From Nostoc linckia FACHB-104 (GTDB lineage: Bacteria > Cyanobacteriota > Cyanobacteriia > Cyanobacteriales > Nostocaceae): a DNA stretch of 64,000 nucleotides. The position numbers were made by a program, and so were the translations under genes. Location: the NCBI RefSeq assembly GCF_014696615.1, contig NZ_JACJQJ010000003.1, positions 186,001 through 250,000 of the forward strand, read 5' to 3'. Below the pieces are notes generated by a model that did no database searches, was not told where the DNA came from, and saw nothing but the letters and a program-made list of their open reading frames with translations. Shown piece by piece: positions 7,665 through 31,309 of the stretch. Every line of letters begins with the position of its first letter. The stretch's first letter is position 1.

Positions 7665-7702
7665 TTGTAGACCATTTTCCGTCACTGTCTTCACCAAACT
7701 AC

Positions 7703-8176
7703 ATGATTATGGGGCACAAAATTCCAGTTGAACCTCAAGCAAGATTAGAAAATTTTTTGGAACATTTAGAAGCAGCTAGGCAATTACAAAGAGAATGGAT
7801 GACTTATGGACTTGACTGCGTAAATTTATATTTTGATGATATCGATGGAGATTGGTGGGAAAAATGGACAGAAGAGGAACCGCAGAGTTTTGAAGCGGCT
7901 GTAATAGCGTTCCTAGAAAGTGATAACTGGGTTGCTGTTAGGGTACGCAAGCAACTGCATGACAAACCTATCTCGGAAATTGCTAGCAAGCTGGACAAAT
8001 ATTTGAGTTTCCCACAAGAAGACCAGATTTTTGCTATCAAAAACTTTTTAGCAGGTAAGGTAGCTGTGGGAGACAGTTACCGCTACAGCACCATTGAAAT
8101 CGATGAAATTGAACTTTTTAATTTAGCAGCAGAACTCTTAGAGAAGTTGGAAGAAATTCGAGGTAGAAATCTCTAG
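7703..8176 (+). CDS. Protein carrying the antitoxin-type C-terminal domain
   Basis: A 157-aa acidic protein. Residues 70-149 (FLESDNWVAVRVRKQL ... IFAIKNFLAGKVAVGDS ... DEIELFNLAAELLEKL) align without gaps with residues 152-231 of the HTH antitoxin upstream. Key shared blocks are LESD, VAV(K/R)VR, EI(A), IFA(V/I)KN, LAG.VAVG and IDEIEL. The N-terminal 65 residues are different: a predicted helix, then a Trp-rich acidic stretch (DDIDGDWWEKWTEEEP). The start is ATG 7703, with a second ATG at 7709. No DNA-binding motif is seen. The domain recurs in one locus on different N-terminal partners, which suggests an adaptor or interaction module. The function is unknown. Confidence 0.75.
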   Translation: MIMGHKIPVEPQARLENFLEHLEAARQLQREWMTYGLDCVNLYFDDIDGDWWEKWTEEEPQSFEAAVIAFLESDNWVAVRVRKQLHDKPISEIASKLDKYLSFPQEDQIFAIKNFLAGKVAVGDSYRYSTIEIDEIELFNLAAELLEKLEEIRGRNL

Positions 8177-8265
8177 GTAGTTGTGAGTATTCATGAAAGT
8201 AGGGTGTGTTGTCGCACAGCGCAACGCACCAAGAAGACATTAAAAATTCGCAAATCTTGCTACCT

Positions 8266-8298
8266 AGATACCCGACTTTTTGAAAAAGTTGGGTATCT
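8266..8298. repeat. Dispersed 33-base hairpin repeat, copy 1
   Basis: The stem begins AGATACCCGACTTTTT and closes with AAAAAGTTGGGTATCT. Related copies at 18556-18588 and 44018-44050 have AGATCCCC/GGGGATCT. Here the fifth position and its partner have both changed (C-G to A-T), so the pairing is kept. Confidence 0.75.
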
Positions 8299-8336
8299 AA
8301 ATCTCGCTAAATTTAGTGAGATTTCATCCTATAAAT

Positions 8337-8449
8337 CAATACGGTTCGGTTAATAATTTTTCGTCATGATTTCGGGGTTGTGAAGACGCGATCAATCGCG
8401 TCTCTACAGAATTTAACGTCAATCGAATTATTTTATCCGAACCGTATTG
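8337..8449. mobile_element. MITE-like element A, 113 bp
   Basis: Perfect 13-bp terminal inverted repeats CAATACGGTTCGG (8337-8349) and CCGAACCGTATTG (8437-8449), with further imperfect symmetry inside and an internal hairpin (8384-8403). The direct repeat TCCTATAAAT lies at 8327-8336 and, after removing element B and its duplication, directly at the right end (now 8586-8595). This is a 10-bp target duplication. There is no coding capacity, so it would need a transposase supplied elsewhere. Confidence 0.82.
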
Positions 8450-8452
8450 TCC

Positions 8453-8578
8453 CAATACTTCTCGGTTAAGGATTTTAAACTAGGAATTTGGTTTGGGGAA
8501 AAGGTAAAGGGGTAAGGGTTAAAGGTTTTTTCTTGTCCCTTTTCCCCTTACCCTTTTTCCCTTAATCGACAAGTATTG
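8453..8578. mobile_element. MITE-like element B, 126 bp, copy 1
   Basis: Terminal inverted repeats start CAATACTTCTCGGTTAAGG and end in the near reverse complement, closing with CAAGTATTG. It is flanked by a perfect 10-bp duplication CGTATTGTCC (8443-8452 and 8579-8588), whose first 7 bases are the last 7 of element A. B therefore jumped into the edge of A. A second 126-bp copy, in opposite orientation, is at 31184-31309, with about nine differences by eye. Confidence 0.88.
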
Positions 8579-8692
8579 CGTATTGTCCTATAAATAGGGC
8601 TTGCAGAATTTTTCAGGCGACGCAGTAAGAATTTAATGATTTTGTTGTTGCGAAATAATCAAATTCTAAAAAAATTTGCACCCAATAATTAT

Positions 8693-8720
8693 GTAGGGGC
8701 GCAAAGCTTTGCGCCCCTAC
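8693..8720. terminator. Perfect 28-base palindrome
   Basis: GTAGGGGCGCAAAG / CTTTGCGCCCCTAC is a 14+14 perfect dyad, 38 bp after the stop of the minus-strand glyoxalase-like gene. It is of the kind of GC-rich palindrome dispersed in cyanobacterial genomes. It could serve as a terminator but lacks a T-run. Confidence 0.5.
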
Positions 8721-8757
8721 CTCATGGTTACTTTATGACTACACCCTTAATTAATAA

Positions 8758-9360
8758 CTAATTCGCGACCTCAGCCATTTCAATAATCCGTTCTTCATAA
8801 TCCTTAACCAAAAAATTAAGGGGCTTTTGGTTGCGAATCTTGAACTTTAAACCGCGTGTTTCTACTCGCATTAAAATCATCTCTAGGCAGTCGCGGTCAA
8901 AGCAAACATGGCGTTGCTGATTTTTTGTGCCTAAACTAGCGCCAGTAATAATGTGCAACTGGGTATTTTTCTTTAACTGATACCACAGGCCTTCGCTGGC
9001 ATTATTCATCATTTTGTTGGAGAAACTGGGCCCTGTAGACATATAAAGTGGGTCTATGCCTGTTGCTCCTATAGTTTGTTCGTAGTTGTAGTAATAGTGC
9101 AAAGGCACTTCAGCGGCTGGCAAATCTAGCAGCCCTTCATACAACTGTCGCGCAATTTCCAAATCTGACACCATGACGGTGTGTACTTTGGGCGCACTGG
9201 TAAGGAACATCCACATTGCTCCAGCGTAAGCCGCCAGTAGCAATACCATAATGCCTTGGGTGGAGAGTAGGCTATCCAGGGGCAAGGAAGGCAGAAACGA
9301 GCCTAAAGTTAAAGGACTAAGTAGGAACGATATCACACTAGAGGCTATAACCATGAACAA
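8758..9360 (-). CDS. Membrane-anchored glyoxalase-like (VOC fold) protein
   Basis: A 200-aa protein. Residues 1-60 contain one or two hydrophobic segments (FMVIASSVISFLLSPLTL; GIMVLLLAAYAGAMWMFLT). The rest fits a VOC/glyoxalase fold: VHTVMVSDLEIARQLYEGLL at about 70-90 is the typical first strand and helix with a metal-type His. Later strands include LHIITGA and HVCFDRDCLEMILMRV, with a final IIEMAE strand. VOC proteins handle small substrates such as methylglyoxal adducts or chelate metals. Which one applies here cannot be told. The N-terminal anchor suggests action at a membrane. The start is ATG 9360. Confidence in the fold is moderate. Confidence 0.7.
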   Translation of the reverse strand: MFMVIASSVISFLLSPLTLGSFLPSLPLDSLLSTQGIMVLLLAAYAGAMWMFLTSAPKVHTVMVSDLEIARQLYEGLLDLPAAEVPLHYYYNYEQTIGATGIDPLYMSTGPSFSNKMMNNASEGLWYQLKKNTQLHIITGASLGTKNQQRHVCFDRDCLEMILMRVETRGLKFKIRNQKPLNFLVKDYEERIIEMAEVAN

Positions 9361-24588: not shown

Positions 24589-24899
24589 TGATTTTTCACT
24601 TATTAAAAAAGCCAGCAGAATTGGGGGATTCTCCCCCAAACCCCCGATTGGGTGACGGTTGCGTCCCCCAAACCCCCTCCAAAATTATTGTTCTGTTTTT
24701 TGTTGAGTAACTAGTTTTTTGGTTTTGTTATCAATTAATTTTCTTAACTGAACTGTATTTGCTTTTAGCAAGAATTTTTTATAGTCAAAATTTCCGAATA
24801 AATAACTATAGGGTGGACACTATTGGATCTTGGGTTCAAAACCTAACGATCGCAAGTGTCCACCCTACAAAAATTCCTGATAATGAAGGAATTGGTGTT
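24589..24899. other. 311-bp gap between two convergent porin genes, with terminator hairpins
   Basis: Contains a GC-rich hairpin TTGGGGG/CCCCCAA near 24619-24637 followed by C-rich runs. It also contains a dyad TAGGGTGGACACT (24809-24821) / AGTGTCCACCCTA (24855-24867), 32 bp before the minus-strand stop. The latter probably ends transcription from both sides. No gene is seen. Confidence 0.65.
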
Positions 24900-31183: not shown

Positions 31184-31309
31184 CAATACTTGTCGGTTAA
31201 GGGTAAAAGGGGAAGGGGAAAAGGGGTAAGAAAAAACCTTTAACCCTTACCCTTTCACCTTTTCCCCAAACCAAATTCCCAGTTTAAAATCCTTAACCGA
31301 GCAGTATTG
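31184..31309. mobile_element. MITE-like element B, 126 bp, copy 2 (opposite orientation)
   Basis: Starts CAATACTTGTCGGTTAAGG and ends CCTTAACCGAGCAGTATTG. It is flanked by a perfect 10-bp duplication CAATCTGTCG (31174-31183 and 31310-31319). The reverse complement matches 8453-8578 over the full 126 bp with about nine differences. The target itself belongs to the repeat family seen at 52956 and 59649, so this is a second case of nesting. Confidence 0.88.

Follow-up and report, generated by a model that had tools for sequence, protein, structure and literature searches.

The IS4 family of insertion sequences (ISs) duplicates about 10 bp of its target and, in the survey of De Palmenaer et al. 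(2008; PMC2266710), its subgroup IS4 is given as having duplications of 10–13 bp, ends of the form -AATR...WTW, a YREK motif and a size of 1400–1650 bp; the available text of that survey places passenger genes, as of 2008, only in subgroup IS231. Two descriptions of cyanobacterial MITEs are also close to the locus studied here. Nezha (Zhou et al., 2008) was proposed to be mobilized by ISNpu3-like elements via shared ends, according to the passages on it in later papers (PMC10969869, PMC3049150, PMC3733652). Anabaena sp. 90 has 147 complete or partial short MITEs, whose inverted repeats, according to the available part of the authors' account, resemble those of no IS found in the same genome (type II) (PMC3542288). 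Our locus lies in a window of 64,000 nucleotides from Nostoc linckia FACHB-104 (the window being the whole stretch of DNA analyzed), in which one short element, B, interrupts the right border of another, A. We consider it very probable that both are non-autonomous MITEs mobilized in trans by transposases of the IS4 family (IS4 subgroup), A having come first and B later. No published account of this nested pair was found in the literature that we searched by title and start of abstract, a statement that extends to that literature only, and four end sequences had no occurrence in the literature searched.

MITE A (113 bp) occupies positions 8337..8449 and MITE B (126 bp) positions 8453..8578, both on the plus strand; both are bounded by inverted-repeat arms (8337–8353 / 8433–8449, 94% complementary, in A; 8453–8471 / 8560–8578, 89% complementary, in B) and both have copies elsewhere. 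The left copy of A's 10-bp target duplication, TCCTATAAAT, lies at 8327..8336 and is the same in Calothrix membranacea FACHB-236 (G004), the genome in which the sequence of the right copy, at 8586..8595 in the window, directly adjoins A. The 10-bp duplication of B, CGTATTGTCC, is found at 8443..8452, where its first seven bases, CGTATTG, are the final seven of A (8443–8449), and again at 8579..8588, where it overlaps the right copy of A's duplication by TCC. Every coordinate of the nested insertions that the first-pass annotation had placed at 8327–8595, with two intact 10-bp duplications and B at A's right border, was reproduced, and taking out B with one CGTATTGTCC does leave A between two copies of TCCTATAAAT. 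By our own estimate, the chance that an inverted-repeat pair is directly flanked by an exact 10-bp repeat is about 4^-10; the nested duplications are not due to chance. The ends of A read CAATACGGTTCGGTTAA on the left and CAATACGGTTCGGATAA on the right (as reverse complement), with a core hairpin AAGACGCGAT..ATCGCGTCTC between them. Those of B in the nested pair read CAATACTTCTCGGTTAAGG and, as reverse complement, CAATACTTGTCGATTAAGGG, the consensus left end of the family, from 42 copies, being CAATACTGCTCGGTTAAGG. The fold z is −5.3 for A and −4.6 for B, and no ORF of at least 80 aa overlaps either element. A second copy of B stands in the window at 31184..31309 on the minus strand, with CAATCTGTCG at both flanks. 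Just downstream of the nested pair, at 8693–8720, there is a perfect palindrome, GTAGGGGCGCAAAGCTTTGCGCCCCTAC.

The 1.66-kb stretch from 7700 to 9360 was compared across 29 genomes, our own included. A, whole or as a recognizable part, is at the orthologous place in four of the seven other genomes of the genus, and all four of these (G002, G003, G004 and G007) lack B. G004 has TCCTATAAAT-A-TCCTATAAAT, both duplications being intact, with an A that is 91% identical to that of the window and whose final base is T, not G. A lacks some of its right end in G002 (Nostoc carneum NIES-2107 plasmid1) and in G007; in G003 other sequence stands in place of its left part, and its right end abuts TCCTATAAAT. 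Both elements are absent from G005 and G006, whose spacer is too diverged for A's target to be recognized; the spacer of G001 at the orthologous place is different again, and none of the other genomes of the genus that show no A there has a recognizable pre-A empty site. Since the duplications of 10 bp are nested and a congener has A in both its duplications and no B, A was inserted first and B later, the order that had been read from the window alone. Empty sites departing from the pre-insertion sequence predicted in that reading did not occur in the relatives, and G004 matches the pre-B state. The right flank of the site in G004 is 97% identical to that of the window, so that B most simply arrived after this split; with all four congeners considered, arrival after the lineage had split from them is likewise the simplest account, rather than clean loss in four. 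In another genome (G012, locus L100), the spacer beside the orthologue of window positions 8758–9360 holds a different MITE with an A core, with ends CAATACAGTTCAG/CAATACGGTTCAG and duplication ACTTAAAAAA, seemingly an independent insertion in the same spacer.

Copies of both elements are numerous in the own genome, a draft of 9.39 Mb in 181 contigs. The pattern CAATACNNNNCGGTTAANNATTTT occurs in it 73 times (one being A's own left end) against none for the reversed control pattern, and CAATACNNNTCGGTTAA, with at most one mismatch, 332 times against five for the control. With 40 of 140 candidate places scored, A has 45 matches, eight of which, the window copy included, span at least 95 of the 113 bases at 82% identity or more; a further one extends over the full length at 73% identity, and the remainder includes many that cover the core hairpin alone. 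B has at least 40 matches (40 scored of 267 candidates), all near full length and at least 89% identical. Matches to A at E ≤1e-10 are present in 19 of 99 genomes of the family, our own included, with at most eight places scored per genome. The search for CAATAC...GTATTG elements with 10-bp duplications that the first-pass annotation had suggested thus returned dozens of copies. Among 65 distinct own-genome copies of B type, the 10-bp duplication is exact in 41, has one mismatch in 14 and two or more in 10, and none of the 65 has an exact duplication at another length within the range of 6–14 bp; because these copies were chosen by similarity or end pattern, intact ones are over-represented among them. 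Among 69 distinct copies of A type from the family, the ends being allowed a 3-base shift, 29 have exact duplications, 11 one mismatch, six two and 23 more than two, the last class including the A of the window because B interrupts it. The duplication length of the MITE family is 10 bp. A and B are true MITEs: short, non-coding, with terminal inverted repeats, fixed-length duplications and ends shared with autonomous elements, and with an empty site for B. Duplications, family copies and shared IS ends all support the MITE identity that had been assigned to them.

At the 55 B-type sites with at most one mismatch the targets show a weak palindromic preference, base 1 never being T, base 3 being A or T in 41 and base 8 in 47, and base 10 being A once. 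A preference for TATA targets, as an explanation of A's TCCTATAAAT, was rejected: a central TATA is present in three of the 69 A-type copies, two of which (L001 and L094) are this same site. That B is aimed at MITE ends is not supported either, an end-like match lying within 200 bp in six of 66 elements (the 65 B-type copies and A); among these six, the A–B pair and one B–B pair 21 bp apart look real, and two look like chance. At L064 (452–709), two B copies 21 bp apart each have their own exact 10-bp duplication. Outside the 66, where a B copy has no right end, L043 and L062 also have another end close by. At L043 (105–181) an A-like end, CAATACGGTTTGGATAA, lies 53 bp from the left end of B, possibly a second nested pair; at L062 a truncated B is followed, at 749, by an end similar to AAATACAGTTCAGTTAAGAAAATTAATTGA, which in the window is the end of another inverted-repeat element (24731–24760, minus strand).

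The first-pass annotation had also advised looking for a full IS with the same ends; such ISs are present in relatives, and none was found in the own draft genome. A search with the NF033592 profile gave matches in six of eight genomes of the genus, and one clade transposase, used as query against the 99 genomes of the family, found counterparts in 43, including distant IS4 proteins of 24–28% identity. Both IS ends were located in 42 of the 54 loci examined, and the duplications of these 42 are exact 10-bp ones in 24, carry a single mismatch in one and two or more in 17; the copies include repeats of one IS per genome (11 in G036, 4 in G084), and one copy appears under both L074 and L163. ISs with ends of the type CAATACGGTTCAGTTAAG are about 1.5 kb long, those of the type CAATACGGTTCGGTTAAG 1501 bp (L173) and those of the type CAATACTTTTCGGTTAAG 1473–1474 bp (L072, L171 and L273), and those ending in CAATACTGCTCGGTTAAG or CAATACTGTTCGGTTAAG measure 2150–2203 bp, with one of 2302. 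The left end of A is that of L173 over 17 bases, and A carries CAATACGGTTCGG, as in a 1.5-kb IS. The consensus left end of B is that of L167 (2194 bp) and L168 (2150 bp) over at least 19 bases, and the consensus carries CAATACTGCTCGG, as in the 2.2-kb ISs. In the B of the nested pair, bases 7–9 of the left end are TTC, not TGC, and TTC is found at one IS end (L191); its right end (TTG) was matched by no IS end located.

The transposases of L078 and L072 pass the cut-offs of NF033592, PF13006 (Nterm_IS4) and PF01609 (DDE_Tnp_1), and their catalytic spacings of 77 and 104 fall within D(60–110)D(100–150)E; Y(2)R(3)E(6)K is present in all ten transposases checked. The ends, CAATAC...TTA, fit the -AATR--------WTW of subgroup IS4, and the exact 10 bp seen in 24 of 42 copies fits its 10–13 bp duplication. 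In size, the TTT, GGT-TCGG and GGT-TCAG types run from 1473 to 1541 bp, bar two short copies of 1032 and 1059 bp, whereas the TGC/TGT group, at 2150–2302 bp and mostly with an extra ORF, departs from the single-ORF, 1400–1650 bp form. On a tree of 18 clade transposases and two others, the five end labels need four changes, the minimum, a value as low as this being reached in none of 200 shuffles; the TGT type falls within the TGC clade, and the split that separates the TCAG type from the others is supported at only 81/84. End type follows transposase clade. The probable autonomous partners of A and B are IS4-family ISs with matching ends and 10-bp duplications, and the end sequences support an assignment of A and B to different subgroups of one IS4 transposase clade.

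Several features of these ISs were recorded in passing. The CAATACGGTTCAGTTAAG-ended ISs (L177, L268, L269, L270, L178, L272, L271, L180, L176 and L188) insert at NNNTATANNN, and TATA is present in all ten exact duplications of these TCAG-end ISs (centered in nine) versus one of nine for TGC-end ISs. The 2.15–2.2 kb ISs with TGC/TGT ends have a divergent ORF near one end in 12 of the 22 loci tested (L078, 2687–3079, with homologues in L081, L164–L170, L172, L186 and L274); it is missing from the eight loci of TTT/GGT type and from L074/L163, a single copy in G003 for which no second end was located. Open frames of 126–145 aa were read in four loci; the ORF has no match in Pfam, NCBIfam or PHROGs, and its fold model is poor (mean pLDDT 62). 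The transposases of L078, L081 and L163, all three on contig C4 of G003, are 100% identical, and the flanks of L078 and L081, for which both ends were found, do not match, a hint that copies have recombined with one another.

In the own genome (G000), the loci of the 16 PF01609 matches show only five CAATAC..CGGTTAA matches (≤2 mismatches), all off-consensus and unpaired, and no CAATAC-type ends were found among inverted ends with duplications at these loci. The sole NF033592 protein is 25% identical to a clade transposase and has no CAATAC ends. The rarer end variants TAC, TTT and TGG of this genome were examined as possible ISs and rejected, the two-ended ones being MITE-sized, several being one-ended and none having a transposase between its ends. 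With a single distant NF033592 protein that has no such ends, the MITEs of this genome appear orphaned, although in a draft of 181 contigs this is an indication and not proof; the genome may have lost its helper since, or may never have held one for long.

The same A interior is found with different end triplets. Among 89 A-type loci, 21 were skipped (end missing, eroded or unmatched) and four duplicates were dropped; the 64 copies typed at both ends comprise 45 G/G, nine T/T, one G/T and nine with another triplet at one end. Four of the nine T/T copies are the identical L232–L235 of G074, so that independent T/T cases number about six. In L232–L235 the A interior, which elsewhere has GGT ends, has TGC ends, and each of the four copies has a site of its own, flanked by a different exact 10-bp duplication. 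They differ from the GGT form at bases 7 and 9 of both ends and at base 19 on the left. The asymmetry of that form's right arm, an inner GGATAA, is retained in them, so replacement did not extend to the entire arm. In G074, where 14 of 23 A matches could be typed, seven are T-type at both ends, seven are GGT-type at both ends and none is mixed, and a TGC-clade transposase lies next to a single CAATACTGCTCGG end (L172, truncated by the contig). Not every genome fits a simple rule: A copies of T type are also present in G048 and G093, where no clade transposase was found. We suggest tentatively, holding the chances to be just short of even, that MITEs of the IS4-type clade change helper via a short triplet (bases 7–9) at both ends. 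In that case, some two substitutions at each end would place an old MITE family under another transposase and trigger a new burst.

Under the reading that we prefer, A inserted first, duplicating TCCTATAAAT, and B then landed on a 10-bp target of which seven bases were the terminal bases of A, splitting A from its right-hand duplication. IS4-type transposases would bind both MITEs at their ends and mobilize them by a cut-and-paste route, the 10-bp stagger and this mode of movement being what IS4-family membership suggests. Two other histories are scarcely tenable. If A and B were immobile hairpin repeats of REP or terminator kind, formed in situ or through recombination, their strong folds and the many places of the own genome matched by A's core hairpin alone would be accounted for, but exact 10-bp duplications at dozens of sites, the occupied and empty states of B's orthologous site and full ISs with the same ends would not. 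The adjacency of A and B, together with the A-like end near B at L043, might instead suggest that B was inserted first or that the two came as one composite unit; A's end, however, lies inside B's duplication and not the reverse, G004 has A with both duplications and no B, and no other whole A+B copy exists among the 65 B-type copies, all of which make such a history most improbable.

The first-pass annotation had supposed that one transposase family moves both elements, and this stands insofar as both point to one IS4 clade; the ends, in contrast, are of two subgroups, and the helpers are therefore probably not the same transposase. Most plausibly A was moved by the GGT-end type (1.5-kb IS) and B by the TGC-end type (2.2-kb IS). 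A single transposase whose recognition is confined to CAATAC (outer) and CGGTTAA (inner) is unlikely, though a good deal less so than the two histories above: these motifs and the 10-bp duplication are common to A and B, the end triplets vary within the 2.2-kb clade (TGC, TGT), and B's own two ends differ (TGC versus TTG). What speaks against it is that end type tracks transposase clade and that the two ends of A-type copies agree in type in the counts given above, as expected if the triplet matters.

The nested pair is a clear example of ordinary cyanobacterial MITE biology, and the family around it is the more interesting object. What began as a visual reading is now a history in two steps, its intermediate matched in a relative, and a probable helper family can be named; moreover, the natural series in which one MITE interior has different end triplets, with transposase clades to match, lets end recognition by IS4-type enzymes be tested directly. 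Like A and B, the MITEs of Anabaena sp. 90 are short and belong to a related cyanobacterium; ISs matching A and B were found in relatives and not in the own draft genome, and the available part of that account gives none for the Anabaena sp. 90 MITEs in that genome (PMC3542288). Nezha too is a cyanobacterial MITE, the likeness being one of published description. Unlike the ISs of subgroup IS4, A and B are non-coding, and the helper ISs of 2.15–2.2 kb, most with an extra divergent ORF, exceed the 1400–1650 bp given for the subgroup in the available text of the 2008 survey (PMC2266710). The helper ISs nevertheless have in common with the subgroup, as described there, the -AATR...WTW ends, the 10–13 bp duplications and YREK, and the end of E. 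coli IS4, TAATGCCGATCAGTTAAGGATC, agrees with the B consensus, CAATACTGCTCGGTTAAGGATT, at 16 of 22 bases without a gap.
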